The notes beneath the pieces are model-generated. The model was not told where the DNA came from, did no database searches, and saw only the letters and a program-made list of their open reading frames with translations. This document shows positions 10,620 to 37,326 of a stretch of DNA of 39,871 bases, piece by piece. The stretch is from Chromatiales bacterium (lineage in GTDB: Bacteria > Pseudomonadota > Gammaproteobacteria > Thiohalomonadales > Thiohalomonadaceae), in assembly GCA_003251535.1 (NCBI GenBank), contig QKFD01000116.1, positions 1 through 39,871 on the forward strand, given 5' to 3'. Each line of letters begins with the position of its first letter. Positions within the stretch are counted from its first letter, which is position 1. The position numbers and the translations under genes were made by a program.

Positions 10620-11186
<567 letters not shown>

Positions 11187-12495: not shown

Positions 12496-14343
12496 TCACA
12501 GCGGTTCGTGCAGCGCCACCATCCGCCGCGGCCAGGTAAATTTGAAGACCGTGCCCCGCTCTGGGGCCGACTCCACCCAAACCCGCCCGCCACAGCTCTC
12601 CACCACCTTACGAACGATGGAGAGGCCGATGCCGGTGCTCTCTCGCTCATCCCGAGCGGCGAGGGTCTGGAAGACGCGAAAGACCCGCTCGTGGTACTCG
12701 GGGGCGATTCCGGGACCATCATCGGCCACGGAAAACTCGTAGAGCCCACCGGGGATGGGGCGCCAACCGATGCGAATGACGCCGTTGCGGCGGTCGTGGT
12801 GCTTCAAGGCGTTGCCGATCAGATTGCTAAACACCTGGGTGAGATGAAAGCGATCGGTGTCGAGGGTGGGGGTCTTGCTGGGTAGCTCGACACTGAACTC
12901 CGGCGGCAGATCGAGGGTGGCCACCACCTCACGTAGCAGTTCGCGCAGATCGACCCGCTCCGGCTGGGCGAGGGAGCGGCCGGCGCGTGAAAAGGTGAGC
13001 AGGGCGTCGATGAACTGATCCATGCGGCGGACTCGGGAGCGGAGCAGATGGAGCCGCTCGCGGCTCTGATCATCCACCCGCTCACCCAGGTCCTCCTCTA
13101 GCCAGGAGCTAATGTTGGAGACAGCCCGCAGCGGCGCCTTCAGATCGTGGGAGACCACATAGACAAACTCCTCCAGCTCGCCGTTGAGGCGGGTCAACTC
13201 CGCCGCCTTGGCCTCCAGCGCCAACCCCCGCGCCGAGATCTGATCGAGCATCAACCGGAAGGCGCTGGCTAAAACCCCCACCTCATGGCGGGCCCCCAAG
13301 GGTAGGTTGACGCGGAAGTCCCCCGTCGCCACCTGGCGTGCGGCGTGGGTCAATTCGGCAACCGGGAGGGTGACGCGGCGCGCCAGCCAGACGGCCAGCA
13401 GCACCGCCGAGCCGGCCATAATCAGGGCGAGGAGGAGGGTGTCAAAGAGGATGCCGAGGGAGGCGTGGAACCATTTGGGCGGTTCGGTCGTCAGGCGGAT
13501 CCCGAGGCTCCGCTCTGGATGTTCGGGATCAAAGTGGACCTCGCGTAGCTGCTGCATCTCCCCTGCCGCTCCGCTATCGCCCGCTTCGTGGGTCTGCTGC
13601 CAGGGTTGGGCCGTGGGTCCCGGGGTTGGGATCTCCTCCACCGGAAAGAGCGGTTCACCGAAGCGGCCGGTTAGCTCGATCTGGATCCCACTCAGGTCAT
13701 CCACCAGCTCCGTGAGCAGAAAGCTATCGATCTGCTCGGTCTCGATGGCCAGCACCCCAAACAGCGCCCCGTCAGAGGTGAATACCGGGTAGGCGGCGTA
13801 GACCGGGTGGCCGGCGTTGAGATCGGAGAGATAGACCTGATAGATGCTGAGCCGTAGCGCCGCGGCGACATAGGGTGCCTCGGCCAGTCGCACCAACTCC
13901 GAGGCAGGCACCTCCGTGATCTGGCGGGCACGCCGCTCCACGCGCAGTAGCTCACGTCCAACATCGGTGATGGAGATGTAACGAATGCTGCGGTAGTGGG
14001 GGTGGCGCGCCAGGGTCTCGGCAAATAGCGCCGCCAATCGCTCGTGCCAGGCGGGGCGCGCCTCGGGGTGGAGATCCCCGCTGCGGGTGGCCTGTAACAG
14101 ACCGCGCATCGCCGGGACACCGCCCAACACCTGCACCTCTTGGCGCAGATCGGCAAACATGGTCCGGAGCCGGAACGCGGCGCTATCGGCAGCGAGGCGC
14201 AGGTTCTCGCTCTGCTGCTGCTGGAGCAGGCGATACATCCTGGCGTGGAGTACCGCGCCCACCGAGATGGCGGTACCAAATACCACGATACCGGTCAGCA
14301 GGGCGATGCGAGCCGTGATTCCGAAGGAGCGCCATCCATCCAT
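12496..14343 (-). CDS. Membrane sensor histidine kinase with periplasmic domain and HAMP
   Basis: This 615-residue kinase has one membrane helix at about 12-34, a large periplasmic double-Cache-like domain (about 35-290) and a second helix at about 298-320. HAMP follows (about 321-375), then a coiled linker and HisKA with VSHDLKAPLRAVSN (phospho-His 399). The ATPase domain shows the N box FSNLIGNALKHHDR, G1 DDGPGIAP and G2 STGIGLSIVRKVVESCGG, complete and likely active. The HisKA type resembles phytochrome-like kinases. No response regulator is adjacent, so it is an orphan whose partner is elsewhere. The PhnD-like gene follows in the same direction and may encode its periplasmic ligand-binding partner. 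The N-terminal signal-anchor and ATG at 14343 fit. Confidence 0.9.
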   Translation of the reverse strand: MDGWRSFGITARIALLTGIVVFGTAISVGAVLHARMYRLLQQQQSENLRLAADSAAFRLRTMFADLRQEVQVLGGVPAMRGLLQATRSGDLHPEARPAWHERLAALFAETLARHPHYRSIRYISITDVGRELLRVERRARQITEVPASELVRLAEAPYVAAALRLSIYQVYLSDLNAGHPVYAAYPVFTSDGALFGVLAIETEQIDSFLLTELVDDLSGIQIELTGRFGEPLFPVEEIPTPGPTAQPWQQTHEAGDSGAAGEMQQLREVHFDPEHPERSLGIRLTTEPPKWFHASLGILFDTLLLALIMAGSAVLLAVWLARRVTLPVAELTHAARQVATGDFRVNLPLGARHEVGVLASAFRLMLDQISARGLALEAKAAELTRLNGELEEFVYVVSHDLKAPLRAVSNISSWLEEDLGERVDDQSRERLHLLRSRVRRMDQFIDALLTFSRAGRSLAQPERVDLRELLREVVATLDLPPEFSVELPSKTPTLDTDRFHLTQVFSNLIGNALKHHDRRNGVIRIGWRPIPGGLYEFSVADDGPGIAPEYHERVFRVFQTLAARDERESTGIGLSIVRKVVESCGGRVWVESAPERGTVFKFTWPRRMVALHEPL

Positions 14344-14729
14344 GGGGCGGCCTCAAGGCGAGGGGCGGTGCCCGGTGTGGGCGGGGATCGACAGGTGACA
14401 AAGTAGCAGAGGCGGCGGCAACCCTGGGCTCCTTGGTCGAGCAGGGGCATTGCACGTCGCCCCGCTAGCGGACAACTGGCGCAGGCCCCAACCGGAGTGG
14501 CGTCGCCCTGCTCGCCCACCGCCTACACCGCTGGTGCCCGCTCGCAGGCGGGCCATCGGCGGCCCCTGAGCTGAGTACCGCAGCACGCAGGGGGGAGCTG
14601 CCGGGAGGCCCATTGCACCACCGACACCACGGCATCGCAAGCGGTAAATGCTGCGTCATGGTGCCCCACATTGACTCACCGCCGCCGTCCCCCCATGCCA
14701 CCGTCGGTGGCCCCGAGGGGAGATCCGGA
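14344..14729. other. 386-base gap without a recognised gene
   Basis: This region lies between the histidine kinase start and the deaminase stop, both on the minus strand. Open frames on both strands give Pro/Gly/Ala/Arg-rich translations of the kind expected from GC-rich noncoding DNA, and I see no tRNA, riboswitch core or terminator with a T run. It should hold the kinase promoter. Confidence 0.5.
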
Positions 14730-15173
14730 TTAGACGCCGATATCCTCATTCCACAACACCGGCTTTTCGCGGATCAGGCGCGTCATAAGGTCTACGCACT
14801 CCGCATCGTCCAACACCACCACCTCCACCCCCCGTGATCGTAGTAGCTCCTCCTCCCCCATGAAGGTGCGGTGTTCGCCAATCACCACCTTGGGGATGCC
14901 GTAGAGGAGGATGGCGCCACTGCACATAGGGCAGGGGGAGAGGGTGGTGTAGAGCACCGCTTCGCGGTAGGTAGCCGCTGGGAGGCGACCGGCATTCTCC
15001 AGGGCATCCATCTCCCCGTGGAGCACCACAGATCCCCTCTGCACCCGCCGATTGTGGCCGCGCCCGATGATGCGCCCCTGATGCACCAATACCGAGCCGA
15101 TGGGGATCCCACCTTCACGCCAACCGGCCATGGCCTCCTCTAGGGCGGCCTGCATAAAGGGATCACGGGCCAT
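14730..15173 (-). CDS. Cytosine deaminase of the yeast Fcy1 type
   Basis: This 147-residue zinc-dependent CDA-superfamily deaminase has the catalytic HGE at 52-54 and the zinc cysteines in PCPMC (C81, C84). Most of its length resembles fungal Fcy1 rather than TadA or guanine deaminase. GIPIGSVLV, GRGHNRRVQRGS, LENAGRL, YTTLSPCPMCSGAILLYGIP and the terminal WNEDIGV all have direct Fcy1 counterparts, including the Asp (D144) that in Fcy1 contacts cytosine. The expected reaction is cytosine to uracil plus ammonia. I start at ATG 15173: GAGGAG lies 7-8 bases upstream, and the upstream gene's stop is 2 bases before the ATG. It is coupled to the beta-hydroxyacid dehydrogenase gene. A related small-amide or creatinine-type deaminase is an alternative. 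Confidence 0.82.
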   Translation of the reverse strand: MARDPFMQAALEEAMAGWREGGIPIGSVLVHQGRIIGRGHNRRVQRGSVVLHGEMDALENAGRLPAATYREAVLYTTLSPCPMCSGAILLYGIPKVVIGEHRTFMGEEELLRSRGVEVVVLDDAECVDLMTRLIREKPVLWNEDIGV

Positions 15174-18354: not shown

Positions 18355-19602
18355 CTAGCGGGTGTTGGCGGTGAACTCCGGATACGCCTCCAGACCGCAC
18401 TCGGCCAGGTCAACGCCGTTGTACTCCTCCTCCTCGCTGACCCGCAGGCCCATCACCACCTTCAGGATCATCCAGACAACGAAGCTGGCAGTGAAGGTCC
18501 AGGCGAAGATGGCCCCGAGGCCGATCAGCTGGGCAGTAATGGTTGCCCCTTCATTGGTGAGCGGCACAGCCAGCAGGCCCCAGGCACCAGCGACACCGTG
18601 GACTGAGATGGCGCCAACCGGGTCATCGATCTTCAGCTTGTCCAGGGTGATGATGGCGAACACCACGATAAGACCACCGATGGCGCCGATGAGGGTCGCC
18701 TCCAGGGCCGTCGGCGTGGAGGGCTCAGCGGTGATGGCCACAAGGCCGGCGAGGGCGCCGTTGAGGGCCATGGTGAGGTCGGCCTTGCCGAACAGCATCC
18801 GCGCCGCGATCAGAGCGGCCACTACACCGCCAGCGGCTGCCATGTTGGTGTTGACGAAGACGGCGGCAACGGCGTTGGCATTCTCGACGGTGGAGACCGC
18901 CAGCTGGGAGCCACCGTTAAACCCGAACCAACCGAGCCAGAGGATGAAGGTGCCCAGGGTAGCCAGCGGCAGATTGGCGCCAGGGATGGCGTTCACCTCG
19001 CCATTCTTGCCGTACTTGCCTTTGCGAGCGCCCAGCAGCAGGACACCGGCGAGGGCCGCGGAGGCGCCGGCCAGGTGCACAATGCCTGACCCGGCGAAGT
19101 CGAGGAAACCTGCGGCGTCGAGCCAGCCTTTACCCCACTTCCAGTACCCTTCAACAGGGTAGATAAAGCCGGTCATCACCACTGAGAAGGCGAGGAAGGC
19201 CCACAGCTTCATGCGCTCAGCCACCGCACCAGAGACGATGGACATGGCGGTGGCAACAAACACCACCTGGAAGAAGAAATCGGCCTGCGTGGAGTAGGCC
19301 GAGGCCGTTCCGCCGATCACCTGCTCTGCGGTGTTGTCCGCGCCCAGCAGGAAACCGATGGAGGGGATAAAGCCCCCTTCCGGGCTGGAGTACATCAGGT
19401 GGTAACCCAAGAGCAGGTACATGATGCAGGCGATGGCATACAGCACGATGTTCTTGGTGAGGATCTCAGCGGTGTTCTTGGCGCGTACCAAGCCGGCTTC
19501 CAGCATGGCAAAGCCGGCGGCCATCCACATCACCAGGGCTCCGGAGACGAGGAGGTAAAAGGTATCGAGCGCGTACGTTAGATGTTGTGCCGTGTGGTCC
19601 AT
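18355..19602 (-). CDS. amtB: Ammonium transporter AmtB
   Basis: This 415-residue Amt/MEP/Rh channel for ammonium uptake across the inner membrane has about eleven hydrophobic helices. The pore twin histidines are in GIVHLAGA (H176) and ISVHGVAGAWG (H335), and FFFQVVFVATAMSIVSGAVAER is a signature block. The C-terminal cytoplasmic tail LRVSEEEEYNGVDLAECGLEAYPEF is the PII-responsive segment. I start at ATG 19602, because GAGGAG lies 7 bases upstream and the upstream frame lies inside glnK. It begins 16 bases after the glnK stop, the standard glnK-amtB pairing in which GlnK blocks the channel when nitrogen is plentiful. It is under the sigma-54 promoter at 21057-21073. Confidence 0.96.
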   Translation of the reverse strand: MDHTAQHLTYALDTFYLLVSGALVMWMAAGFAMLEAGLVRAKNTAEILTKNIVLYAIACIMYLLLGYHLMYSSPEGGFIPSIGFLLGADNTAEQVIGGTASAYSTQADFFFQVVFVATAMSIVSGAVAERMKLWAFLAFSVVMTGFIYPVEGYWKWGKGWLDAAGFLDFAGSGIVHLAGASAALAGVLLLGARKGKYGKNGEVNAIPGANLPLATLGTFILWLGWFGFNGGSQLAVSTVENANAVAAVFVNTNMAAAGGVVAALIAARMLFGKADLTMALNGALAGLVAITAEPSTPTALEATLIGAIGGLIVVFAIITLDKLKIDDPVGAISVHGVAGAWGLLAVPLTNEGATITAQLIGLGAIFAWTFTASFVVWMILKVVMGLRVSEEEEYNGVDLAECGLEAYPEFTANTR

Positions 19603-19618
19603 GGTGAACTCCTCTGAA

Positions 19619-20308
<690 letters not shown>

Positions 20309-20986
20309 TTACAGATCGAAGCTCTTCGACCAGCCGATGGAGACGCGGGTGTCGTCGATATCGCTGCCATCGTCGATATCGTTCTTGTCCACCGCGAAGG
20401 TGAAGTCGCCAAAGTCACCAGCGCTCTTGGTGAGGCTCACCTGGTAGTGGCTGTAGTCATCGACGCTGTCGTCTTCGAAGTCGTAGTAACCCACCAGGGC
20501 GCCGAGGGAGAGACCTTCCTTCACCTCAAAGTTGGCACCCAGGCTGTAGTAGAGATCGTTCTCATCGCCACCCGCCTCTTTATCGACGGTGTAGGCGATG
20601 CCCGCGGTGATGGGGCCAAAGCCGAGGTTGCCGTAGATCTCGGTGAAGTCGAGCTCATCGTCGCCCACCGGGTAGAGGTAGCTGATGACGCCGAGGTCAT
20701 AGCTGACGGCACCCACTTCACCGGCGTAACCGCCATAGAGGTCCAGCTCATACTGACCGTCGCCGCCGAGGCTAGAGGTCCAGGTGCCAAGATAGATACC
20801 GCTGTCGTGGGCAAAGTCGAGACCGCCGGAGATGGCTGCCTCGTCGTCGGTCTGGGTGACGCCACGCCAGATGTAGTTAGAGTTCACACCGACGTTGGCA
20901 CTCAACTCGGCCATGGCCGGTGCACTGGCTAGGCTGGCCATCGCTAGGACGGAGACCGCTGCGAGAGTCTTGAACGAATGGTTCAT
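20309..20986 (-). CDS. TorF-family putative porin (TIGR02001-type outer membrane protein)
   Basis: This 225-residue exported protein has a signal peptide (1-26, ending AMA before ELSANVG). A beta-barrel-like body of alternating strands, rich in Tyr, Gly and Asp, follows and ends in Phe-Asp-Leu. The N-terminal SANVGVNSNYIWRGVTQT and the YELDLYGGYAGEVG block are hallmarks of the Gcw_chp/TIGR02001 family often found beside glnK-amtB. It probably forms an outer membrane channel produced during nitrogen limitation; the solute is unknown, and ammonium or small amines are a guess from context. GAGGAAA precedes the ATG. It is the first gene after the sigma-54 promoter. Confidence 0.85.
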   Translation of the reverse strand: MNHSFKTLAAVSVLAMASLASAPAMAELSANVGVNSNYIWRGVTQTDDEAAISGGLDFAHDSGIYLGTWTSSLGGDGQYELDLYGGYAGEVGAVSYDLGVISYLYPVGDDELDFTEIYGNLGFGPITAGIAYTVDKEAGGDENDLYYSLGANFEVKEGLSLGALVGYYDFEDDSVDDYSHYQVSLTKSAGDFGDFTFAVDKNDIDDGSDIDDTRVSIGWSKSFDL

Positions 20987-21212: not shown

Positions 21213-21506
21213 ATGAGTCGCATCGACGAGTTGGCCGCACAACTGGCCTCCCTCCTCCCCCCGGGGGCGAAGGAGCTACAGCGGGATCTGGAGAAGAACA
21301 TGAATGCGGTGCTGCACTCCGCCTTCGAGCGGATGGATCTGGTCACCCGTGAGCAGTTTGAGATCCAGGCGCAGCTGCTGGCCCGCACCCGCGCCAAAGT
21401 GGATACCCTGGAGCGGCAGGTAGCGGCGCTGGAGCGCCACCTAGGGTTGGTACCTGCTGTCGCTGACACCTCCTCCGACACCGGCGAGACCTCCATCGAG
21501 CTGTGA
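21213..21506 (+). CDS. ubiK: UbiK-family ubiquinone biosynthesis accessory factor
   Basis: This 97-residue protein of the BMFP/YqiC family begins MSRIDELAAQLASLLPPG, with an N-terminal amphipathic helix. The central block NMNAVLHSAFERMDLVTREQFE is strongly typical, and a C-terminal coiled coil (about 50-78, LLARTRAKVDTLERQVAAL) mediates trimerisation. UbiK assists the aerobic ubiquinone biosynthesis complex with UbiJ, and membrane binding has been described. AGGAGA is 6 bases before the ATG. It lies divergent from the porin operon, a common position near glnK; the comM/yifB gene that often follows is replaced here by the chemosensory cluster. The tail (VADTSSDTGETSIEL) is acidic and variable. 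Confidence 0.88.
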   Translation: MSRIDELAAQLASLLPPGAKELQRDLEKNMNAVLHSAFERMDLVTREQFEIQAQLLARTRAKVDTLERQVAALERHLGLVPAVADTSSDTGETSIEL

Positions 21507-21625: not shown

Positions 21626-23098
21626 ATGCAACCCACCTCGCCCACCCCACCCCCGAGCGGCCCCCTCTCGCCGCCCTGCGAACTCTCGCTTACCGAGCTG
21701 ATTCGCCTGCGGACGGGGATCGCCATCCAGCCGCACCAACGAGAGAAGTTGCGCGAGGCGTTGGCGCTGGCCTGTGAGCGCTTTGGCCACAGCAGCTGTG
21801 AGGCGCTGATCCAGCGCCTGGCGGCGCACCCCGACGGTTGCCCCGAGCAGGAGTTCCTCATCGGCGAGATCACCGTCGGCGAGAGCTACTTTTTCCGTGA
21901 TCCGGTGCAGATCGCCTTCCTCCGCGAGACCCTGCTGCCACGGCTCATTGCCAGTAAACAGGCGCGGGGGGAGCGTAGCCTACGCATCTGGTCGGCCGGC
22001 TGTGCCGGTGGTCAGGAGCTATACACCATCGCCATCCTGCTGCGCGAACTACTACCCGATTTCGATGCCTGGCAGCTGCACCTGCTCGGCACCGATATCA
22101 ATACCCGGGTGTTGGCCCAGGCGGTGCGGGGGCGCTACCGCTCCTGGTCGTTTCGGGCCACAACCCAGGCGACGCTGGCCCGTCACTTTGTACCGGAGGG
22201 GCCCTACTGGGGGGTGACCCAATCGCTCAAGGAGCGGGTCAAGTTCTGTTATCTCAATCTGCGCGATGACCGCTTCCCATCCATCCTCACCGAGACCAAC
22301 GCCCTCGACCTCATCCTCTGTCGCAACGTCTTCATCTATTTCGACCCGGAGACGGTGCAGCGGGTGATGGAGAAGTTCGCCGCCTGCTTAGTGCCGGGGG
22401 CCGTGGTGATGGTGGCCTCCACCGATCCATTGGTGCCGGTGGCCGGTCTGCGTATGAACCAGGCGGGGGATATCTTTTTCCTGGAGCGGGAGGGGGAGCC
22501 GCTGCCGCACTCGGCGCCGCCCCGGCCCACCCCGCCGGCCGTTTGGGCGCCCCCCCCACTCCCACCCTCACCGCCCCCGGCGGCACCACCGGTCTCACCG
22601 CCGCTCCCCTCGCCAGAGTGGGCGCAGCTACTGCGTGAGCGGCGTTGGCCGGAGGTGCTGGCGGTGGTGGAGCAGCGCCTCGCCCGCGAGGGGCGCACGA
22701 CGGCACTGTTGCAGCTGCGGGCCCGCTGCCTGGCCAATGTCGGTCTGCTGACGGAGGCGGCCGCCTGCGGCCGAGAGGCGCTCGATCGCGATCCCCTGGA
22801 TCGCATCGGTCAGTTCACCTACGCCCTGGTGCTCATCGAGCTGGACCGCCCGCGGGAGGCGGAGGCGGCGTTGCGGCGAGCGCTCTATCTGGATCCCGGC
22901 TTCGCCGAGGCGCACTATCAACTAGGGCTGCTGGCGTTGCGCGGCGGTGATGCGGTAGGGGGACGCAAACGGCTACGGGTGGCGCTCTCACTCCTGGAGG
23001 ATCAAGATCCCTCCAGCGAGGTGGTCCACGCCGAGGGCATGACACGCTCCAGGCTCGCCGATATCCTAAGGTCCGAGCTTTCTATCTACGACGAGTGA
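21626..23098 (+). CDS. CheR-type chemoreceptor methyltransferase with C-terminal TPR domain
   Basis: This 490-residue protein is a CheR methyltransferase (about 16-285) joined by a very proline-rich linker (about 292-330) to a TPR-like helical domain (about 335-480). This is the architecture of WspC. It should methylate glutamates of the receptor encoded four genes downstream, using SAM. Typical blocks are GEITVGESYFFRDP, LHLLGTDINTRVLAQA and DLILCRNVFIYFD. The SAM loop reads WSAGCAGGQELYTIA where most CheR proteins have GCSTGEEPYS, so two motif residues differ and activity should be tested. The ATG at 21626 lacks a clear Shine-Dalgarno. It is the first gene of a six-gene operon, and its stop is one base from the next ATG. 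Confidence 0.9.
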   Translation: MQPTSPTPPPSGPLSPPCELSLTELIRLRTGIAIQPHQREKLREALALACERFGHSSCEALIQRLAAHPDGCPEQEFLIGEITVGESYFFRDPVQIAFLRETLLPRLIASKQARGERSLRIWSAGCAGGQELYTIAILLRELLPDFDAWQLHLLGTDINTRVLAQAVRGRYRSWSFRATTQATLARHFVPEGPYWGVTQSLKERVKFCYLNLRDDRFPSILTETNALDLILCRNVFIYFDPETVQRVMEKFAACLVPGAVVMVASTDPLVPVAGLRMNQAGDIFFLEREGEPLPHSAPPRPTPPAVWAPPPLPPSPPPAAPPVSPPLPSPEWAQLLRERRWPEVLAVVEQRLAREGRTTALLQLRARCLANVGLLTEAAACGREALDRDPLDRIGQFTYALVLIELDRPREAEAALRRALYLDPGFAEAHYQLGLLALRGGDAVGGRKRLRVALSLLEDQDPSSEVVHAEGMTRSRLADILRSELSIYDE

Positions 23099-23099
23099 G

Positions 23100-23654
23100 A
23101 TGAGCACTTCCCCCATAGCCCAAGCACCTGCCAGCCTACTGCCGGTGGATGCCACGGCGCAGCGTATCCTCCGCCAACGGGCCGAGTTGCTGGCCCGACG
23201 GGAGGAGCAGGGGGCGGAGGGGGAGAGCCGTTTCTACATCCGCTTTCTGCTGGGCAATGAGCCGTTTGGCGTCCCCTATCAGTTCTTAGAGGAGATCCTC
23301 CCTGGCGCGCAGCCCGCTCGGGTGCCGGGTGTCCCCCCCTTCATCGCCGGGGTGGTCAACCGGCGGGGTGATCTGATTACTGTGCTCGACCTACGCCATC
23401 TGTTCCAGGCGGCCCCGGGCGAGCGGCGTGATGCCGGGGTGTTGGTGGTGACGGCAGCGGGTGTGACGGCAGGGATCTACGCCCCCCATATCGAGGGCAA
23501 CACCCGCTACGATCCACAGACACTGCTGCCGCCCCCACCTGCCAGTGGGGTGAGTAATCCGGCCCACATCGCTGGTGTCCATGAGGGGAGGGTCACCCTC
23601 CTCGACATGGAGGCGTTACTGGGTGATCCGGCCCTGCGGATCGATACGGGTTGA
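23100..23654 (+). CDS. CheW-like adaptor protein (first copy)
   Basis: This 184-residue protein has a CheW domain (about 43-178) preceded by about 40 residues rich in Ala and Arg/Glu. FYIRFLLGNEPFGVPYQFLEEIL and FIAGVVNRRGDLITVLDLRHLF are the characteristic strand pair and the NRRG receptor-binding block. CheW links the receptor to CheA in the signalling array. The N-terminal extension resembles WspD-type adaptors. The ATG starts one base after the CheR-TPR stop, so the genes are coupled. A second CheW lies two genes downstream, which allows a distinct role for each, as in Wsp systems. Confidence 0.9.
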   Translation: MSTSPIAQAPASLLPVDATAQRILRQRAELLARREEQGAEGESRFYIRFLLGNEPFGVPYQFLEEILPGAQPARVPGVPPFIAGVVNRRGDLITVLDLRHLFQAAPGERRDAGVLVVTAAGVTAGIYAPHIEGNTRYDPQTLLPPPPASGVSNPAHIAGVHEGRVTLLDMEALLGDPALRIDTG

Positions 23655-23732
23655 GCCCGTAGTCCACAACAATTATGAGGAGGCGTCCCGCTAGAGGATG
23701 CCCCATGAGCGCGGAATCATGAGGGGGCACAT

Positions 23733-24836
23733 ATGAGCTTTCCCGAGGTTGAGTCTGGTCAGCTGTTCCACCAGGCACTGCTCGGTTCGGCACCGGCCCG
23801 GGTCCTGGTGGTGGATGATATGGCCACCAATCGTGCCCTGGTCAAGGCAGTGTTGCGCCCGCCGGAGTTCGACATCTTGGAGGCGGCCTCCGGTGATGAG
23901 GCGCTCGCCATCATCCCTCAGCATGACCTCGATGCGGTGCTGCTGGATGTGATCATGCCGGGCAAGAGTGGGCTGGAGGTGTGCGCCGAGATCCGCGGTG
24001 TCCTCAAACTGCCACTGCTGCCCATCATCATGGTCACCTCCATGGGCAGCCCAGATGACGTGGTGCAGGGGATGGAGATGGGGGCCACCGACTATGTGGC
24101 CAAGCCGTTCAACGCGGCCGAGCTGATGGCGCGGGTGCGGGCGGCGGTGGACCACAAGCGGCTCACCGATCGGTTAGAGGATACCGAGTCGGTACTCTTT
24201 GCCCTGGCGCGGGTGGTGGAGTCGAAGGATGGTGGCACGGGGGATCACTGCGATCGGCTGCAACACATCGCCCTGGTGTTCGGCAAGGCGCTCGGCCTCG
24301 CCTGGGAGGACCTGGAGGCGCTACGGCGCGGCGGGGTGCTGCATGACATCGGCAAGGTGGCCATCCCGGATCGCATCCTCCTCAAAGAGGGGCCGCTCAC
24401 CGAGGAGGAGTGGGCCATCATGCGCCAACACCCCACCATCGGCACCCATCTATGCTCACCACTCAAGACCATGCGCCGCACGGTCGATATCGTCCGCTGT
24501 CACCACGAGAAGTGGGATGGCAGCGGCTATCCGGCGGGGTTGATGGGGGAGGAGATCCCGCTGCTGGCACGGGTGTTCCAGATCTGCGACTGCTACGATG
24601 CCCTGCGCAGCGTGCGCCCCTATAAGCCGGCCATCGACCACGAGACCACCCTCGACATCCTGGCGGAGGAGGCCCAGCGTGGCTTCTGGGATCAGAACCT
24701 GATGAAGGTCTTCTTGGAGCTTTCCCGCGGCCACCCGGAGCGGTTGGAGCTGCCAACCGACCGCACCTCTGGCCGCGATGCCGAACTGGTCCGCGGGGTC
24801 ACCACCATGAATCTATATGACTGGGAGCGACGCTGA
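23733..24836 (+). CDS. Response regulator with REC and HD-GYP c-di-GMP phosphodiesterase domains
   Basis: This 367-residue output protein has a receiver domain (about 22-140) with acidic pair D28/D29, phospho-acceptor D72 in LLDVIMPG and K124 in YVAKPF. HD-GYP follows (about 150-345). Catalytic residues are H172 in the TGDHCDRL block, HD 204-205 in LHDIGKVAIPDR, H233 in MRQHPTIG, and HHEKWDGSGYP with the GYP signature (about 257-267). All are present, so it should hydrolyse c-di-GMP to pGpG or GMP. The CheA-REC kinase in the operon is the likely phosphodonor. GAGGGGG precedes the ATG. It replaces the GGDEF regulator WspR of Wsp-type clusters, giving the opposite enzymatic sign. Its end overlaps the next gene by 20 bases. 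Confidence 0.93.
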   Translation: MSFPEVESGQLFHQALLGSAPARVLVVDDMATNRALVKAVLRPPEFDILEAASGDEALAIIPQHDLDAVLLDVIMPGKSGLEVCAEIRGVLKLPLLPIIMVTSMGSPDDVVQGMEMGATDYVAKPFNAAELMARVRAAVDHKRLTDRLEDTESVLFALARVVESKDGGTGDHCDRLQHIALVFGKALGLAWEDLEALRRGGVLHDIGKVAIPDRILLKEGPLTEEEWAIMRQHPTIGTHLCSPLKTMRRTVDIVRCHHEKWDGSGYPAGLMGEEIPLLARVFQICDCYDALRSVRPYKPAIDHETTLDILAEEAQRGFWDQNLMKVFLELSRGHPERLELPTDRTSGRDAELVRGVTTMNLYDWERR

Positions 24837-25341
24837 TCTCCTGCTCACCACCGCCTGCGGCGAGCGATTTGCCCTGCCGCTGGCGATGGTGGAGCGCATC
24901 ACCGCCCTGCCACAACTGCTACCGGTCCCCGGCGCCCCGGCCTACCTGCAAGGGGTGATGGTGGTGGCAGGGGAGTGTCTGCCGGTGGTGGATCTCGCCC
25001 GCCGTCTGGGGTTGCCGCGGGCGGCGCCATGGTCGCTAGATATCGCCCTGCTCATCTGCCGTTGTGGCCCGCTGCGGGCCGCCTTGGCGGTGGATGAGGT
25101 GCTGGGGGTCATCCACAGCGCGCCCCCCGACCAGCAGCTCGCCGAGCTATTTCGCGGTGGTCTGCCGGCCGTCAGTAGCCTGACCCAGACCCCTCAGGGG
25201 ATGGCGCTTATCCCGGATGTAGGGCGGCTCATTGATCTCGACCTCGCCCTCCCTGGTAGCGACCTCACCCTGCCCGAATCGCTCTTGGAGGCGTGCCGCC
25301 ACGCCACCGCCGTTACCACCGAGGACCCCCATGACCGCTGA
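24817..25341 (+). CDS. CheW-like adaptor protein (second copy)
   Basis: This 174-residue CheW-domain protein begins almost directly with the domain (DLLLTTACGERFALPLAMVERI) and includes YLQGVMVVAGECLPVVDLARRLG, the receptor-binding strand. The usual NxRG is changed to VAGE, so binding may differ from the first CheW. A C-terminal extension of about 30 residues ends in an acidic stretch. It overlaps the REC-HD-GYP gene at its start (20 bases) and the receptor gene at its end (11 bases), which indicates translation coupling. The role is a second coupling protein for the CheA-receptor array, like the WspB/WspD pair, possibly with competition between the two adaptors. Confidence 0.85.
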   Translation: MTGSDADLLLTTACGERFALPLAMVERITALPQLLPVPGAPAYLQGVMVVAGECLPVVDLARRLGLPRAAPWSLDIALLICRCGPLRAALAVDEVLGVIHSAPPDQQLAELFRGGLPAVSSLTQTPQGMALIPDVGRLIDLDLALPGSDLTLPESLLEACRHATAVTTEDPHDR

Positions 25342-27244
25342 CTCCCACCCGACCGCGCCCCCCAGCGCCGGGCTGGCCGCCCAGATGGGTATCGACGCCG
25401 CCGATCAGGCCGCCCGCAAGTCGTTCATCGGCTTCGGCCCCGCCGACGCCGCAGAGCTGGCGGCCTTGGCACCATTGATCCAGAGCAACGCCCACGCCAT
25501 CGTCGAGCGTTTCTACGACAATATCCGCCGCTACCCGGAGCTGGAGGCGGTGATCAACCGGGCCGGCTCCAGCGTCGAACGCCTGAAGCAGACCCAGCGC
25601 CAATACCTGCTGGAGCTGTTTACCAGCGAGCTGGACAGCTCCTACTTCGACCGCCGTCTCGCCATCGGCGTTATCCACCACCGCATCGGCCTCACCCCGC
25701 GCTGGTATATCGGCAGCTACTCGGTCTACAGCCAGCTCATCACCCCCATCATCCTCCGCCACTACCGCTTCCGCCCCGACCGTGCCGCCCGCGCCGTGGC
25801 CGCGGTGCAGAAGGTGCTTGCCCTCGACGCCCAACTCGCCATCGACACCTACATCCATGAGCTGATGGAGGGGTACAAACGGATCAGCCTCTCCAAGGGG
25901 GAGATCGAGCAGCGGGTGGATGAGTACAGCACCCTGGTGCAGCGGGTCACCCATGGTGATCTCACCGCCCGGGTAGAGGGGTTGGAGCAGGCCGATGACG
26001 GCCTCGGTCGGCTGGGGGACGGCTTAAACGCCATGGTGGACAGCCTCTCCGGGATGAGCCGGAGGGTGACCGAGGCGAGCAACTCCATCCTCGACCTGCT
26101 AGAGGAGGTGCAGGAGGCGGTGGCGGCCCAATCCTCCGGTGCCTCCCAGCAGGCCATCTCGGTCAACGAGACCACCTCCACCCTGGAGGAGATCCGCAGC
26201 ACCTCGCGCCAGACCCTGGAGAAGGCGATGGCGCTGGGGGCCAGCGCCGAGCGCACCCGGCAGGAGGGGAGCCGAGGGTTGGAGGCGGTGGAGGAGAACG
26301 TGCAGGCGATGCGCGATATCCGTGCCAAGGTGGAGGCGATCGGCGAGACGGTCACCGCCCTCTCCACCCAGACCCAACAGATCGGCGAGATCACCGCCGT
26401 GGTGACCGACCTCGCCCAGCAGTTGAAGATGCTGGCCCTCAACGCCTCCATCGAGGCGGCCAAGGCGGGGGAGGCGGGACGTGGCTTCGCGGTGGTGGCG
26501 GCAGAGGTGAAGGAGCTGGCGGAGCAGTCGCAGCAGGGCACCGCCCAGGTGCAGCACATCCTGCTGGAGATCCGCACCGCCGGTGACCGCGCAGTGATGG
26601 CGATGGAGGAGGGGACGCGCGGCGTTGACCGCGGCCTGGTGTTGGCCGAGCGTACCGGCAGCGCGGTACAGGCGCTGATGGATGTGATCCAGGAGACCTC
26701 CCTCGGCGGCCAGCAGATCGTCGCTGCGGTCCGCCAAGAGGCGGCCGGCATCGAGCAGATCGCCACCGCCATGACCGAGATCAACAAGGTCACCGGCCAG
26801 TTTGTCAGCGCCACCCGCAACACCGCCAGCGCCTCCGAGGCGTTGTCGGAGCACGCCGCGGAGCTGCAACGCATGGTGCGCCAGTTCAAACACGAGGGGG
26901 CGGTCGATTTTGCCGCCGCCAAGGGGGCGCACCACGCCTGGCTACTGCGGGTCCACGCCTTCCTCGAAGGGCGCGGTACCCTCACCGATCAGGAGGCCAT
27001 CTCCCACCACCACTGCGAACTGGGGCGTTGGTACGACGAGGTGGGGCGGGAGCGCTATGGTGATCTGCCAGAGCTGAGGCAGCTGGAGCGGCCCCACGCC
27101 GAACTCCACCAGCAGGTGCAGGAGCTGCGCCGTGCCAAGGCGGAGGAGGATTTTGTCGCCCAGGCGGCGGCGGAGCAGCGCATCCGCGACCTCTCCACCC
27201 AGATCAGCGCGCTGCTCGATCGCCTCTCCAGCCTCGTGCAGTAG
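25331..27244 (+). CDS. Soluble globin-coupled chemoreceptor with C-terminal CZB zinc domain
   Basis: This 637-residue receptor has no membrane helix. Residues about 33-180 form a protoglobin sensor domain; IHHRIGLTPRWYIGSY holds the expected proximal haem histidine (H116 by pattern, H117 adjacent). A HAMP-like linker follows (about 205-245). The methyl-accepting domain has the hairpin tip LKMLALNASIEAAKAGEAGRGFAV (about 365-388). The C-terminal CZB domain (about 530-600) carries H534 (HHAW), C562 in HCELGRW, H589 and H593, the zinc-binding pattern. The protein should sense oxygen or another haem ligand and also zinc/thiol oxidants, in the cytoplasm. I use the ATG at 25331, where the protein begins without the out-of-family upstream codons; it overlaps the CheW gene by 11 bases. 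Confidence 0.9.
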   Translation: MTADSHPTAPPSAGLAAQMGIDAADQAARKSFIGFGPADAAELAALAPLIQSNAHAIVERFYDNIRRYPELEAVINRAGSSVERLKQTQRQYLLELFTSELDSSYFDRRLAIGVIHHRIGLTPRWYIGSYSVYSQLITPIILRHYRFRPDRAARAVAAVQKVLALDAQLAIDTYIHELMEGYKRISLSKGEIEQRVDEYSTLVQRVTHGDLTARVEGLEQADDGLGRLGDGLNAMVDSLSGMSRRVTEASNSILDLLEEVQEAVAAQSSGASQQAISVNETTSTLEEIRSTSRQTLEKAMALGASAERTRQEGSRGLEAVEENVQAMRDIRAKVEAIGETVTALSTQTQQIGEITAVVTDLAQQLKMLALNASIEAAKAGEAGRGFAVVAAEVKELAEQSQQGTAQVQHILLEIRTAGDRAVMAMEEGTRGVDRGLVLAERTGSAVQALMDVIQETSLGGQQIVAAVRQEAAGIEQIATAMTEINKVTGQFVSATRNTASASEALSEHAAELQRMVRQFKHEGAVDFAAAKGAHHAWLLRVHAFLEGRGTLTDQEAISHHHCELGRWYDEVGRERYGDLPELRQLERPHAELHQQVQELRRAKAEEDFVAQAAAEQRIRDLSTQISALLDRLSSLVQ

Positions 27245-27250
27245 CCGTCA

Positions 27251-29473
27251 ATGGAGCTTGATCCGGAGATCATGGCCCAGCTGATCGCGGTCTTCCGCGT
27301 TGAGCTGGAGGAGCAGCTGGCGATCATCACCGATGGCCTCATCGCCCTGGAGAAGGGGAGTGCGGCCGAGCCCGCCAGCCAGCTCGACCCGATGTTCCGG
27401 GCCGCCCACAACATCAAGGGGGCGGCCCGCGGGGTGGGGGTGGTCGATCTGGCGGAGCTGGCCCACGCCCTGGAGTCGCTCTTTGCCCGCTTTAAGCGGG
27501 CCGGGGTGGCGCCATCGGCGGCGCTGATCGATCTCTGTCTCGCCAGCCTGGACCGGATGCGGGAGCTGATGGCCGCCTTCGCTGATGGCCGCCCCAGCGA
27601 GTTTGATCTCCCACACCTCATCCGCGAACTGGAGCAGGCGGCCGAGCAGCCGGCCGCACCGGCGGAGACCGCGATCGCCGCCCCCCCGGTGGCCGCTCCA
27701 CCCCAACCACCGCCCCGCCCAGAACCCGCCGCCGAGCCACCCAGCCCGGTGGCGGCGGAGGCGGTGGTGCGCATCGCCGTCGATAAACTGGAGCGCTTGG
27801 GGGGGCGGGCCGACGCCTTCCAGATGGCGCGTATCCAGCTGGATGAGCAGGTGGCCGAACTGCGGCGCCTCGATAGCCTGATCCAGGGGCTCTCCGGGCT
27901 CTGGGCCGCCACCGGCCGCCGTCAGGCCGCTGCCCTACCGCCGGAGCTGGTGCGGTTGCTGGAGAGCGGTGGCGATCTGGTCAGGGAGGCGCGCGATAGC
28001 GCCATCCGTCTCCATCGCCAGCTGCGACGCACCAATAACCAACTCCAACTCCTCACCAGCGGCTTCCAAGAAGAGGTGCGGATGCTGCGCCTGGTGCCCG
28101 CCGCCTCGGTGCTACGTCCTCTCGCCCGCAGCGCCCGCGACATCGCCCGCGAGCTGGGTAAGCAGGTGGAACTGACCATTGAGGGGGAGCAGATCGAACT
28201 GGATCGCCAGGTGCTGGAGGGGCTGCGCGATCCCCTCATGCACCTGCTGCGTAACGCCATCGACCACGGCCTGGAGGCGACCGAGCAGCGGCGGGCCGTT
28301 GGCAAGCCGGAGCGGGGAGAGGTCCGCATCAGCGTCGAGGCGCAGGGGGGCGAGGTGGTGCTCACCCTGGCCGATGACGGGGCCGGCATCGACCCCGAGC
28401 GGGTAGGGCAGAGTGCGGTGCGCCGCGGGGTGATCAGCGAGGCGGAGCGGGCGGCGATGGAGCCGGCGGCACTGCGCGATCTCATCTTCCGTCCCGGCTT
28501 CTCCACCCGCGATGAGGTGAGCGCCATCTCCGGCCGCGGGGTCGGTCTCGATGTGGTGGCGGCCAACCTACAGGGGATCAAGGGGGTGGTGGCGGTAGAG
28601 AGTAGCGTCGGTCACGGCACATGCTTCCGCCTCACGGTCCCCCTCACCCTGGCCACTGATCGCGGCCTGCTGGTCACCGCCGCCGGTAGCGCCTACGCCA
28701 TCCCGGTCACCGGGGTGGAGCGGGTGCTGGAGTTGCCGCCTAGCGCAGTGGTCAATGTGGCGGCGACCCAGGCGGTCATGGTGGAGGGGCGGCCGGTGGC
28801 GCTGCGTCAGCTCTCTCAGGTACTGGGGGAGCGGGCCGCCGAACCGCCAACCGAGGGGCTGATGGCATTGGTGGTGCTCTCCCGCGGCCACCATCGGGTG
28901 GCGCTGCGGGTGGACGAACTGGTGGGGGAGCGGGAGATCGTCATCAAGCCGCTCACCCCGCCCCTCATCTCTGTGCGCCACCTCATCGGTGCCACCCTCA
29001 CCGGGGCCGGGGAGGTGATCATGGTGCTGGATCCCGGTCAGGTGGTGGCCACCGCCCTGGAGCTGGCGGTGGCACCGCTCCCCACCGCCGCCGCCACCAT
29101 TGACCACACCCCGCGAGTGCTGGTGGTGGATGACTCCATCACCACCCGCACCCTGGAGCGCACCATCTTGGAGAATAAGGGGTTCGCCGTCACCATCGCG
29201 GTCAACGGCAAAGAGGCGTGGGATCTGCTCCAGAATGAGCCCCTCTTTGACCTCATCATCACCGACATCGAGATGCCGGTGATGGATGGCCTAGAGCTGA
29301 CCACCCACATCAAGGGGAGCCCCACTCTGCGTCGCACCCCGGTGATCATCGTCTCTTCCCTCGGGAGTGACGAGCAGCGGCGGCGCGGCATGGAGGCGGG
29401 GGCCGACGCCTATATCGTCAAAAGCGAGTTTGAGACCCGGGCGCTGCTGGAGGTGGTGCGGCAGCTCATCTGA
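27251..29473 (+). CDS. CheA-type histidine kinase fused to a receiver domain (CheA-REC)
   Basis: This 740-residue hybrid kinase has an N-terminal Hpt domain with phospho-His 53 in AAHNIKGAARG and an Ala/Pro-rich linker (about 130-168). A dimerisation/ATPase region follows: LLRNAIDHGLE N box, LADDGAGID, SGRGVGLDVVAANLQGIKG, GHGTCFRL. The CheW-like domain (about 465-600) and a C-terminal receiver (about 622-740) follow. The receiver acceptor is D672 in LIITDIEMPVMDG and the conserved Lys is in AYIVKSEF. This is the WspE architecture. The fused receiver may act as a phosphate sink or branch point; the separate REC-HD-GYP is the probable output. It follows the receptor gene by 6 bases. No CheB methylesterase follows, although Wsp-like clusters usually have one. 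Confidence 0.93.
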   Translation: MELDPEIMAQLIAVFRVELEEQLAIITDGLIALEKGSAAEPASQLDPMFRAAHNIKGAARGVGVVDLAELAHALESLFARFKRAGVAPSAALIDLCLASLDRMRELMAAFADGRPSEFDLPHLIRELEQAAEQPAAPAETAIAAPPVAAPPQPPPRPEPAAEPPSPVAAEAVVRIAVDKLERLGGRADAFQMARIQLDEQVAELRRLDSLIQGLSGLWAATGRRQAAALPPELVRLLESGGDLVREARDSAIRLHRQLRRTNNQLQLLTSGFQEEVRMLRLVPAASVLRPLARSARDIARELGKQVELTIEGEQIELDRQVLEGLRDPLMHLLRNAIDHGLEATEQRRAVGKPERGEVRISVEAQGGEVVLTLADDGAGIDPERVGQSAVRRGVISEAERAAMEPAALRDLIFRPGFSTRDEVSAISGRGVGLDVVAANLQGIKGVVAVESSVGHGTCFRLTVPLTLATDRGLLVTAAGSAYAIPVTGVERVLELPPSAVVNVAATQAVMVEGRPVALRQLSQVLGERAAEPPTEGLMALVVLSRGHHRVALRVDELVGEREIVIKPLTPPLISVRHLIGATLTGAGEVIMVLDPGQVVATALELAVAPLPTAAATIDHTPRVLVVDDSITTRTLERTILENKGFAVTIAVNGKEAWDLLQNEPLFDLIITDIEMPVMDGLELTTHIKGSPTLRRTPVIIVSSLGSDEQRRRGMEAGADAYIVKSEFETRALLEVVRQLI

Positions 29474-29490
29474 TCACCTGAGTACGACCC

Positions 29491-29790
29491 TCAACCCAGC
29501 TTCGCCTCCACACTCGCCACCTTCTGCTCCAGCGTCTGGTCCTTATCGGTACGGGTGCCGGCGTAGATCACCGTAGAGATGCGCTCCGCCCCCATGGCAT
29601 GGACCCGTTCATGGCAGCGACGGATAGCGGCGAACGCCGCATCCCACTCCCCCTCCACATTGGTGCCGTTGGCGTGTAGCTGATACTTGAGGCCGCTCTC
29701 CGCCAACACCCGCTCGCACTCCGCCACATACTCGGAGACCGAGACACCTACCCCCATGGGGATCACTGAGAAACTAAGTAGCACTTTCAT
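29491..29790 (-). CDS. MTH1187/YqgV-family thiamine-binding protein
   Basis: This 99-residue small protein of the UPF0045/MTH1187 family has the KVLLSFSVIPMGVGVSVSEYVAEC and NGTNVEGEWDAAFAAIRRCHE blocks that shape its thiamine-binding ferredoxin-like fold. Family members bind thiamine or a related compound in the cytoplasm; the physiological role remains vague. I start at ATG 29790, because GGGAG lies at the right distance and the 22 codons upstream have no similarity. It converges with the CheA-REC gene, 17 bases apart, and has no functional link to it that I can see. Confidence 0.85.
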   Translation of the reverse strand: MKVLLSFSVIPMGVGVSVSEYVAECERVLAESGLKYQLHANGTNVEGEWDAAFAAIRRCHERVHAMGAERISTVIYAGTRTDKDQTLEQKVASVEAKLG

Positions 29791-30059
29791 AGACGCTCCC
29801 GATGCAATTGTTGGATGGTGCTGATTAGGGTAACCCTGAAGCGCAACGCCCCGCACGACGGGTTTGATACGGCACTCAACGCTGCCACGTGGTGGTCGCC
29901 TGACCGTACTCTCTCCTGAGCGGGTGGTATTGGGCGAGGGGGTGACGGTCCAGCAGGGGGCCAGTTTGAAGGACCAAACGACACCGAGTGGGTGTGTCCC
30001 TTGAGGGGGATTTATGGGGGACCGCAGGCGGCCTGTATTTCATTAGCTGGAGTCGCTTT

Positions 30060-30833
30060 CTAATCGTGCCCCGGGTTGAGCGATGCCAAATAGCTATCGC
30101 ATCGCCGGCGCTCGGCGTCAGAGGCGTGTGCATAGCAATAGTCCACCAGTGATTGTATGTACTCTGGGAAGCTGTGATAGGCATGACCCAGTTCTATATC
30201 GTAGCCGGGAAACCAATATTGCACTTCATACTCATCGCCCACGGTCGGCTTCAGGGTATTGAGTATCAGACAGTGATCATCATGTCCCCAGCGAATGACA
30301 ACAAAGTGGCGGGGCTTGATGCTGACCCAGTGTTTTCCTGGGAATGCGCGTACATTTAAATAGGCGCTGCGCGCACTGTAGCGGCGTCGTTTATTTTTGT
30401 GGTAGGCATTGGCGCGGATCAGGTGGTTCCAGTCTTTATAGTGCTCTCCAAGGCTACAAAACCACCGTTCGAAACCGCAGCTCTGGCGACTAAAATTGAT
30501 TAGCGAACGGGGCAGTGCGATGCCCAAGTAGTCCTCAATTCGCGCCACGCTATCTGTGGTGGGGGGCGTGCGCCTATCGGCGCTTACGGCATCAAAGTGA
30601 ATGTCAAATAGCGCTGCTAAAGTGTGTTCATCGATCACCGCTGGTTCCTCACCCATGGTCCTCGGCAGGGCTATCCACATGGCGGCGGGTTCCCCGCTCT
30701 GCACGGCGTTGTGCCGTATCGCCAACTCCTTCCGGCCTCGCTCCTCGAAGCGTTGCAATATAGCGGAGAATGCGTGGGGCGGGAGCACCTGCTGTTGGCT
30801 CGCCAGCAGTAGGGCGGTCGCCGTCGCTGCCAT
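30060..30833 (-). CDS. SMI1/KNR4 (SUKH)-like protein
   Basis: The product is about 257 residues. The N-terminal half (1-90) is not recognised. The C-terminal part starts with DSVARIEDYLGIALPRSLINF, the typical helix and PxxL opening of the SUKH/SMI1-KNR4 fold. It continues with CSLGEHYKDWNHLI and an aromatic-rich strand region HFVVIRWGHDDHCLILNTLKPTV, where SUKH proteins have a DGDGN-type strand. SUKH proteins are common immunity factors against Rhs, CDI and other polymorphic toxins. No toxin gene is near, so it may be an orphan. The start is uncertain: ATG 30833 has no Shine-Dalgarno, and GTG 30884 would add 17 residues. It is transcribed away from the AAA-TPR operon. Confidence 0.65.
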   Translation of the reverse strand: MAATATALLLASQQQVLPPHAFSAILQRFEERGRKELAIRHNAVQSGEPAAMWIALPRTMGEEPAVIDEHTLAALFDIHFDAVSADRRTPPTTDSVARIEDYLGIALPRSLINFSRQSCGFERWFCSLGEHYKDWNHLIRANAYHKNKRRRYSARSAYLNVRAFPGKHWVSIKPRHFVVIRWGHDDHCLILNTLKPTVGDEYEVQYWFPGYDIELGHAYHSFPEYIQSLVDYCYAHASDAERRRCDSYLASLNPGHD

Positions 30834-30886
30834 GCCAACAGGATGAACAGGGCGTAGGCTACAATCCGCGCGGCGTTGTTCCACAC

Positions 30887-36631: not shown

Positions 36632-37133
36632 TACTTGGCGTGGCACGCTGATGGTCGCTGACTACAGCAGCTACAAGGCCCTATTCGCCGCTGGCATCAC
36701 CGAGCTGGGCTGTTGGGCCCACGCCCGACGCAAGTTTGTTGAGCTGGAGAAGGCCAGTGGCTCCGTTATCGCCACCGAGGCCATCCGCCGCATCGGAGCG
36801 CTCTACCACATCGAGCAAGAGGCCAAAGCGCTCGACGACAGTGCACGCTACACCTATCGCCAGCAACACGCGAAACCCCTGGTCGATGCCTTCCACACCT
36901 GGCTGCTCGAACTCCAGCCCAAGGTGCTCGGCTCCAGCGGCACCGCCAAGGCCATCCATTACTGCCTACGCCGCTGGGAGGCGCTGGCGCGCTATCTCGA
37001 TAACGGCCACTACCCCATCGACAATCACCCAGCCGAGAATGTGATTCGGCCTATCGCCCTGGGGCGCAAGAACTGGCTATTCGCCGGCTCAGAATCTGCG
37101 GGGCGGCGCGCCGCCGCCATCATGAGCCTGCTC

Positions 37134-37181
37134 GCCACCGCCACCGCCACCGCCACCGCCAAGGCCAAGGCCAAGGCCAAT
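37134..37181 (+). repeat. Hexanucleotide repeats inside tnpC
   Basis: GCCACC occurs four times, then GCCAAG three times and GCCAAT once, all in frame, coding for alternating Ala-Thr and Ala-Lys. In IS66 transposases this point normally reads ETAKxNG, so the run is an expansion by replication slippage. Confidence 0.85.
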
Positions 37182-37270
37182 GGCCATGACCCCCATGCCT
37201 GGCTCTGCGACGTGCTTGAACGCCTGCCCACCACCCGCGCCTGTCGTTCGTTTTCAACCGAAGGCAAGGG

Positions 37271-37289
37271 GTCGTTACCGGACGCTTAC
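37271..37289 (-). repeat. Right terminal inverted repeat of the IS66 remnant
   Basis: Its complement, GTAAGCGTCCGGTAACGAC, matches the left end at 17 of 19 positions; the element ends at 37289. Confidence 0.85.
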
Positions 37290-37290
37290 G

Positions 37291-37326
37291 AAAAGCCCCG
37301 GTCGTGGGAGCGACCGGGGCTTTTTT
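37291..37326 (+). terminator. Strong Rho-independent terminator next to the IS66 end
   Basis: A 14-bp perfect stem, AAAAGCCCCGGTCG/CGACCGGGGCTTTT (37291-37304 with 37311-37324), has a 6-base loop and ends in TTTTTT (37321-37326). The A run on the other side gives a shorter T run on the minus strand, so it may work both ways and insulate the Rhs cassettes from the IS. Confidence 0.92.

Follow-up and report, generated by a model that had tools for sequence, protein, structure and literature searches.

Can a Wsp-like chemosensory operon whose output regulator breaks down cyclic di-GMP (c-di-GMP) work in one direction only? Wsp, the well-studied case of chemosensory control over this messenger, makes the signal; HD-GYP domains break c-di-GMP down and GGDEF domains make it. 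In this work we have analysed six genes at positions 21626-29473 of contig QKFD01000116.1 of a Chromatiales bacterium (assembly GCA_003251535.1, 4.63 Mb in 130 contigs, 95.6% completeness); the contig, C35 in our numbering, was taken as a stretch of 39,871 nucleotides which we call the window. An earlier note on this DNA had read the genes as a pathway in which an HD-GYP protein replaces the GGDEF regulator WspR, so that c-di-GMP would only fall. That reading found no support in this genome: a matching REC-CheC-GGDEF trio lies on contig C117, and because of it we dropped the HD-GYP as a simple replacement of WspR. As judged from their sequences, a CheB of the cluster type (on C31) and a second receptor with a NIT domain (on C22) are also present, and in relatives the CheB, the trio and the NIT receptor are each found in the same cluster as the CheA. 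We favour the view, with a rough probability of 0.6, that the window holds the globin-type core of a Wsp-like system whose full form has two opposed c-di-GMP outputs and whose genes are here scattered over four loci. Papers are cited by PubMed Central number.

Results

The six plus-strand open reading frames (ORFs) described in the earlier note, for CheR with a tetratricopeptide repeat region (CheR-TPR), CheW, REC-HD-GYP, CheW, a receptor and CheA-REC, were confirmed by a Pfam domain search (Table 1). Their junctions measure, in order, 1 bp, 78 bp, an overlap of 20 bp, an overlap of 11 bp and 6 bp; the description of the genes as tightly coupled suits the short junctions and the overlaps but not the 78 bp, the widest spacing, which stand directly before the HD-GYP gene. 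By the criteria of PMC3447774 and PMC5907407 the operon belongs to the Wsp-like, alternative cellular function (ACF) class, having a CheR-TPR, a CheA with a C-terminal REC, two CheW and a multidomain output regulator, with the TPR matches (TPR_2 5.2e-6, TPR_16 1.3e-5 and further ones) all slightly under the Pfam cut-off. It is not a Wsp system in the strict sense: in a quick tree its CheA falls outside the Pseudomonas WspE clade, and the operon has neither a REC-GGDEF (WspR) nor a CheB (WspF). What remains of the statement that its order and parts match Wsp is a Wsp-like core; CheB is missing, and the order is unlike that of Pseudomonas loci L085 and L093, which run membrane methyl-accepting chemotaxis protein (MCP), CheW, CheR, CheW, CheA, CheB and REC-GGDEF (L102 and L132 differ). 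Pfam recognised no CheB and no GGDEF in the six ORFs, nor in the rest of the window, where the scan covered 30 ORFs, those of the operon included, and about 10 further ORFs of at least 120 aa lay outside it. A minus-strand gene lies downstream, and therefore no chemosensory gene comes after CheA.

Relatives of the CheA were sought in 20 genomes of the order (threshold E <= 1e-110), in 369 genomes of the class (E <= 1e-120, two candidates scored per genome) and in a scan of named genomes, from which the best 80 loci among the matches listed were taken, L066 being counted once, as L029 (G016:C26). Matches came from 5 of the 20 genomes and from at least 12 of the 369, the own genome included each time. 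The class-wide counts are lower bounds, as one scored 2 candidates per genome and another at most 6; the latter missed the known trio of G249, and these counts were not used as evidence of absence. Gene order was read at 15 loci of the order and class samples and at the 80 named-genome loci, using phmmer against the window domains together with motifs; contig ends truncate several loci, and not every CheW gene was recognised.

The quick CheA tree (44 rows) placed the window in an 18-row clade (support 100) which contains all 13 globin-type loci, and the Wsp CheAs of Pseudomonas, Cupriavidus and Ralstonia in a separate 8-row clade (100); the nearest grouping to the window is L029/L030 (84). That a CheA tree might set the operon apart from Wsp had been suggested, and it did so for Pseudomonas Wsp. 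Among the matches listed, the clade has seven further HD-GYP loci, and in five of them (L029, L030, L061, L064 and L080) the HD-GYP, CheB and genes for REC, CheC and PAS-GGDEF lie in one cluster. In L061, from a Sulfuricella denitrificans metagenome-assembled genome (MAG), the order is REC-HD-GYP, CheW, CheR, a minus-strand ORF, CheW, globin-MCP, second MCP, CheA, CheB, a small gene, REC, CheC and GGDEF. The Betaproteobacteria MAG locus L064 has the same parts, its HD-GYP following the second CheW; in L029 and L030 the second MCP comes behind the cyclase, that of L030 being cut by the contig end; and L080, from a Rhodocyclaceae MAG, shows one CheW and no second MCP. The remaining two, L031 (genome G004) and L032 (G003), have HD-GYP, globin-CZB receptor, second MCP, CheA and CheB with no cyclase, on contigs that end just upstream, in L032 inside the HD-GYP gene. 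The earlier note had held that its reading would fail if homologous clusters always paired with a separate GGDEF partner as the true output; such a partner is common and not constant. Other members of the clade are without HD-GYP: L050, L053 and L062 have a WspR-like REC-GGDEF, L052 and L065 the REC-CheC-GGDEF trio, and in L051, L055, L063, L067 and L078 no GGDEF was recognised. Since the clade's first split has HD-GYP and trio on either side (L064 versus L061/L080/L029/L030), two outputs look ancestral in it. Among the matches listed, the combination seen in the window, with HD-GYP inside the cluster and both CheB and cyclase outside, occurred in no other locus examined. A small gene follows CheB in several relatives (L052:6555-7004, L051:3158-3619); one copy gave a weak Hpt match below the cut-off (E 0.00086), the other none.

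Where, then, are the missing parts? The earlier note missed the absence of CheB from the operon, and with it the CheB and the NIT-domain receptor encoded in trans. The own genome has four CheBs, three of which lie in other chemosensory clusters (C68, C80 and C86). The fourth, on C31, has no recognised chemosensory gene in the surrounding 19 kb. A careful tree of 39 rows, from which L082 and L102 were omitted for their long branches, puts it in a clade of 17 whose other 16 members are CheBs of the 18-row CheA clade (97/84), with the three other own CheBs in a clade of their own (100/98); an earlier quick tree of all 41 rows gave the fork 89. The notion that the system lacks CheB and so lacks adaptation was accordingly dropped.

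The cyclase on C117 was found with that of L030; the next own GGDEF match to this query reached 36% and 147 bits. A CheC adjoins it (43% identity, 149 bits; next own match 19 bits), followed by a REC with 57% identity to that of L030 and 61% to that of L061; all three are minus-strand genes that overlap. The active-site motif of the cyclase reads GGEEF, and the CheC, read by eye, retains one copy of the D-x3-E-x2-N-x22-P motif of such proteins. The cyclase and eight cluster copies, that of G060 included, form a nine-row clade (100/99) in a tree computed without L145 and L053 (long branches) and L142 (duplicate); all eight cluster copies lie beside CheA and CheB. Another own GGDEF, on C62, was rejected as the cluster cyclase, being too distant (36%) and grouped with G010/G011. 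Beside this gene, which has relatives in G010 and G011, lies one for a REC protein whose C-terminal part weakly matches CheC/CheX (L152:6612-8533), and no chemosensory genes were recognised near it; the arrangement suggests that a REC-CheC-GGDEF unit can also function away from chemosensory clusters.

The extra MCP of L029, L031, L032, L061 and L064 has Pfam domains NIT, HAMP and MCPsignal, and the C22 receptor matches it over its full length. Between the C22 protein and the window receptor the signalling domains share 62% identity; the subset of other own MCPs in the comparison reached 28-34% over at least 200 residues. A hemerythrin-domain gene (L189:8709-9104) lies directly upstream of the C22 receptor gene on the same strand. 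The C117 trio, the C31 CheB and the C22 receptor are thus probable orthologues of the cluster parts.

Among the 20 genomes of the order, the cluster-type CheB (at least 326 bits; next 237) occurs in exactly the five that are CheA-positive. Four of these have it in cis, and there its co-occurrence with CheA is to be expected for that reason; the window genome, with its CheB in trans, is the informative case. The C117-type cyclase (at least 306 bits) occurs in the window genome (G000), G015 and G016. The 15 genomes scored CheA-negative contained neither CheB nor cyclase at that level. The in-trans genes stand well within their contigs, 51 kb into the 121 kb of C31, 118 kb into the 174 kb of C117 and 20 kb into the 44 kb of C22, and contig breaks therefore do not explain the scatter. 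A foreign contig is likewise unsupported for C31 and C117, whose stretches match the window in composition (r 0.989 for C31 and 0.982 for C117, against 0.966-0.990 for other own stretches, 0.853 for G015 and 0.872 for G016). An IS66-family transposase gene stands at 36651-37463 of the window, 7 kb downstream of the operon, and is possibly relevant to gene scattering.

These data bear on the rival which comes nearest to the earlier note, namely that the operon is a self-contained one-way pathway in which CheA phosphorylates the HD-GYP regulator and the c-di-GMP level drops, with other kinases being served by the trio, CheB and NIT receptor. The core is indeed one operon with the HD-GYP inside, the G003 and G004 clusters do without the trio, and the REC-HD-GYP PA4781 is activated by phosphorylation (PMC3774798). 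Against it speak the grouping of the own trio, CheB and NIT receptor with cluster genes, the lack of cluster-type CheB and cyclase from the CheA-negative genomes, and the presence of a cyclase in the same cluster at five of the seven other HD-GYP loci. We consider this rival unlikely for the window genome.

Is the HD-GYP an enzyme at all? In its REC domain D72 is the predicted phosphorylation site and is invariant in four aligned sequences (the window and three relatives). Aligned with PmGH (PDB 4mcw), the HD-GYP domain keeps D183, H189, H221, D222, K225, H250, H276, H277, D305 and the GYP motif; the equivalents of D183 and K225 are D166 and K208, and the motif is G265-Y266-P267. The claim that all catalytic residues are present is nearly right: seven of the eight metal ligands are retained, and G168 stands at the site of E185. 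At this position the six full-length relatives carry N, N, S, N, T and N, so that none of the seven has E or D, and the HD, HHE and GYP motifs are present in all seven. Residue roles, and the trinuclear (E/D-T-G) subgroup, which needs E or D at this position and to which the window protein does not belong, are those of PMC4159591. With seven ligands, the D183 and K225 equivalents and GYP, the protein has the motifs of an active phosphodiesterase. Its hydrolytic activity is plausible and not certain, because in RpfG, too, the E185 site is occupied by glycine, yet the PmGH variant E185A, markedly weaker, is still active (PMC4159591).

It may be that the HD-GYP is mainly an adaptor, with hydrolysis secondary, and that it binds and restrains the GGDEF protein paired with it in the way that Lysobacter RpfG acts on unphosphorylated WspR. 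The shared glycine at the E185 site, and the marked loss of hydrolysis in E185A, would fit this; however, RpfG has also lost H189 (PMC4159591), which the window protein keeps along with the six other ligands. We regard the adaptor role as rather doubtful and rank it just after the one-way pathway. That the substrate is pGpG or 3'3'-cyclic GMP-AMP (cGAMP), and the pathway not primarily one of c-di-GMP, is improbable: PA4781 has a higher affinity for pGpG than for c-di-GMP (PMC3774798), some HD-GYPs hydrolyse 3'3'-cGAMP (PMC8177086) and the second-best solved-structure match of the window protein is a cGAMP phosphodiesterase, but five of the seven other HD-GYP loci have a GGDEF-domain protein in cis.

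In a careful HD-GYP tree of 13 rows, from which the truncated L032 copy was excluded, seven cluster copies form one clade (100/99) separate from the five own-genome REC-HD-GYPs sampled and from L101. Recruitment of any REC-HD-GYP into the cluster was rejected on the ground that the seven copies tested form this one clade. L101, from a Burkholderiales MAG, is a Wsp-like cluster with a REC-PAS-GAF-HD-GYP after CheB (8766-10937) and no GGDEF recognised nearby; judging by the tree, its HD-GYP output is an independent, unrelated recruitment. The own genome has a separate chemosensory cluster on C66 (L034:487-14750) with CheW, MCP, CheA, CheY, MCP and a 1446-aa REC protein, two ORFs past which lies another REC-HD-GYP gene (13566-14750).

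The receptor, whose start codon is the ATG at 25331, has a Protoglobin domain, an MCP signalling domain and a C-terminal CZB, and a simple hydropathy count found no membrane span; the earlier description of a soluble globin-CZB receptor in place of the membrane protein WspA holds. H116 aligns with the proximal histidine of HemAT ('IH.RIGL'); H116 and Y62 are invariant in eight aligned sequences, and the histidine and a tyrosine also align with HemAT. With the protoglobin domain and the proximal histidine, it qualifies as a predicted globin-coupled sensor. The CZB aligns with DgcZ at four positions which we take to be the zinc ligands. The matched stretch of the signalling domain has 249 residues against 221 in Tsr (1qu7), 28 longer; in length alone this would fit the 40H as against the 36H receptor class. 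PMC5907407 assigns the Wsp-like pathway to the 40H class. Globin receptors occur in 13 loci of the 18-row CheA clade among the matches listed, four of which (the window, L031, L032 and L064) also have CZB on it. In the kinase, Hpt H53 and REC D672 are invariant across eight aligned sequences.

Table 1. Genes of the operon, its flanks in the window and the parts encoded on other contigs
Feature	Position	Strand	Match
CheR methyltransferase with C-terminal TPR region (WspC-like), 490 aa	21626..23098	+	Pfam CheR 3.4e-41
CheW (first), 184 aa	23100..23654	+	Pfam CheW 2e-19
REC-HD-GYP response regulator, 367 aa	23733..24836	+	Pfam Response_reg 2.3e-27, HD_5 2e-32
CheW (second), 174 aa	24817..25341	+	Pfam CheW 4.5e-24
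Soluble receptor, 637 aa	25331..27244	+	Pfam Protoglobin 1.8e-45, MCPsignal 1.3e-35, CZB 1.3e-13
CheA-REC kinase, 740 aa	27251..29473	+	Pfam Hpt, HATPase_c, CheW, C-terminal Response_reg
BMFP-family gene, upstream of operon	21213-21506		Pfam
Thiamine_BP gene, downstream of operon	29491-29856	-	Pfam
Fourth CheB, cluster-type	C31:51006-52043		57-60% identity to cluster CheBs of G015/G016
GGDEF cyclase	C117:118352-119263	-	L030 (G015) query, 49% identity, 307 bits
NIT-domain membrane receptor	C22		full-length match to relatives' extra MCP, 39%, 397 bits; Pfam NIT 1.2e-23

As to the surroundings, no Rfam RNA, c-di-GMP riboswitches included, was found in the window at the gathering score, and a scan of the window for promoters and terminators gave counts at chance level and was uninformative. 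Ammonium-transporter-like and PII-like ORFs, recognised by eye, lie at 18355-20986 beside a Gcw_chp family protein. At 30060-30884 there is an SMI1/KNR4 (SUKH-1) domain protein, of a family whose members are often immunity proteins.

Discussion

How could one kinase serve two enzymes of opposite effect? CheA phosphorylates the REC domains of partner proteins, and CheC-type proteins dephosphorylate RECs of the CheY type. In the mechanism we propose, the globin (haem ligands, probably O2), the CZB (zinc or oxidant) and the NIT receptor (nitrate or nitrite; NIT is a nitrate/nitrite sensor by its Pfam description) would feed one CheW-CheA array. Phosphorylated CheA would pass its phosphate to D72 of the REC-HD-GYP, releasing hydrolysis of c-di-GMP (or pGpG) as in PA4781, to CheB, for adaptation together with CheR, and to the stand-alone REC, from which CheC would drain it. 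The activity of the GGDEF cyclase could be set by the REC/CheC pair or by direct binding of the HD-GYP, as with RpfG and WspR in Lysobacter; CheC or HD-GYP binding would then give the two arms opposite sign. The array would be a two-way valve for c-di-GMP set by the respiratory acceptors available, rather than a one-way breakdown switch. This fuller proposal, in which one array reads electron acceptors through globin, CZB and NIT and drives phosphodiesterase and cyclase reciprocally, with CheC inverting the sign, the genes scattered over four loci here and the breakdown arm alone in a sister genus, is tentative, and we hold it to be possible rather than probable.

Several points weigh against the preferred reading. 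What links the in-trans genes to the core is sequence relationship and co-occurrence, and another of the genome's CheA kinases, of which there are five besides this one, could be the one that the C117 trio serves. With L145, L053 and L142 included in the cyclase tree the nine-row fork falls to 86/43, and the next fork (94/91) also holds an own GGDEF, the long branch L145. A PAS domain is called by Pfam in the L030 cyclase and not in the C117 copy, and weaker cyclase relatives exist in G009, G010 and G011 (145-153 bits, 34-47% identity). The own genome has a second NIT-type MCP, at 169-171 kb of C117, whose signalling domain is of another kind (33%). The two outputs can be separated: in the sister-genus drafts G003 (94% complete) and G004 (72%) HD-GYP and CheB are kept and no such CheC or GGDEF cyclase was found, so that a breakdown-only version may exist there. 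Lastly, were the kinase to act on both enzymes with one sign, a futile cycle would follow, and the sign inversion needed is a proposal.

If the two-output reading is true, control in two directions, and the avoidance of a futile cycle, would become directly testable in a kinase that has a phosphodiesterase and a cyclase of its own and takes respiratory inputs. The case also teaches that reading a single operon can mislead, as three missing parts were found elsewhere in the genome through relatives that keep them together.

Comparison with known systems

Our searches of the open-licence literature turned up no account of a chemosensory cluster that pairs an HD-GYP output with a cyclase. We take the conserved domain cd00077 to be the HD family. 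In the ACF survey of CheR-TPR clusters (PMC3447774) the REC fusions already include those with GGDEF, with EAL and with 'metal-dependent phosphatase cd00077', and the diversity of outputs of such clusters is known from it; its main text names neither HD-GYP nor globin, and its passages hold no pairing with a cyclase. Chemosensory cluster 2 of Halomonas (PMC5907407) is likewise Wsp-like, with an altered gene order, an extra CheY and a different cyclase architecture, but its output is a cyclase and the main text does not mention a phosphodiesterase. The wspHRR genes of Burkholderia are another Wsp output (PMC8552884).

In Lysobacter enzymogenes the HD-GYP protein RpfG can restrain the unphosphorylated Wsp cyclase through a WspR-RpfG complex (PMC9758175). 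A Wsp cyclase and an HD-GYP protein are thus joined in one c-di-GMP circuit there too, although RpfG belongs to the diffusible signal factor (DSF) system, whereas here the HD-GYP lies inside the chemosensory cluster. PA4781 resembles our regulator as a REC-HD-GYP whose hydrolysis, slow as it is, occurs only with the REC phosphorylated; its kinase was not known in PMC3774798, whereas here one is encoded in the operon. The globin-coupled HD-GYP of Vibrio fluvialis (PMC10882959) also puts c-di-GMP breakdown under a haem globin, and O2 promotes breakdown there; it is a single fused protein, however, and here a receptor array and a kinase would stand between globin and HD-GYP. The nearest comparison is still Pseudomonas Wsp (WspABCDEF-R), itself of the ACF class, which shares CheR-TPR, two CheW, a CheA with C-terminal REC, a c-di-GMP response regulator and CheB, the last being of the cluster type and in trans here. 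The present system differs in the separate clade of its CheA, in the soluble globin-CZB receptor that stands for membrane WspA, in its HD-GYP regulator and in a cyclase which is unfused to REC and lies in the REC-CheC-GGDEF trio elsewhere in the genome, as do CheB and the second receptor.

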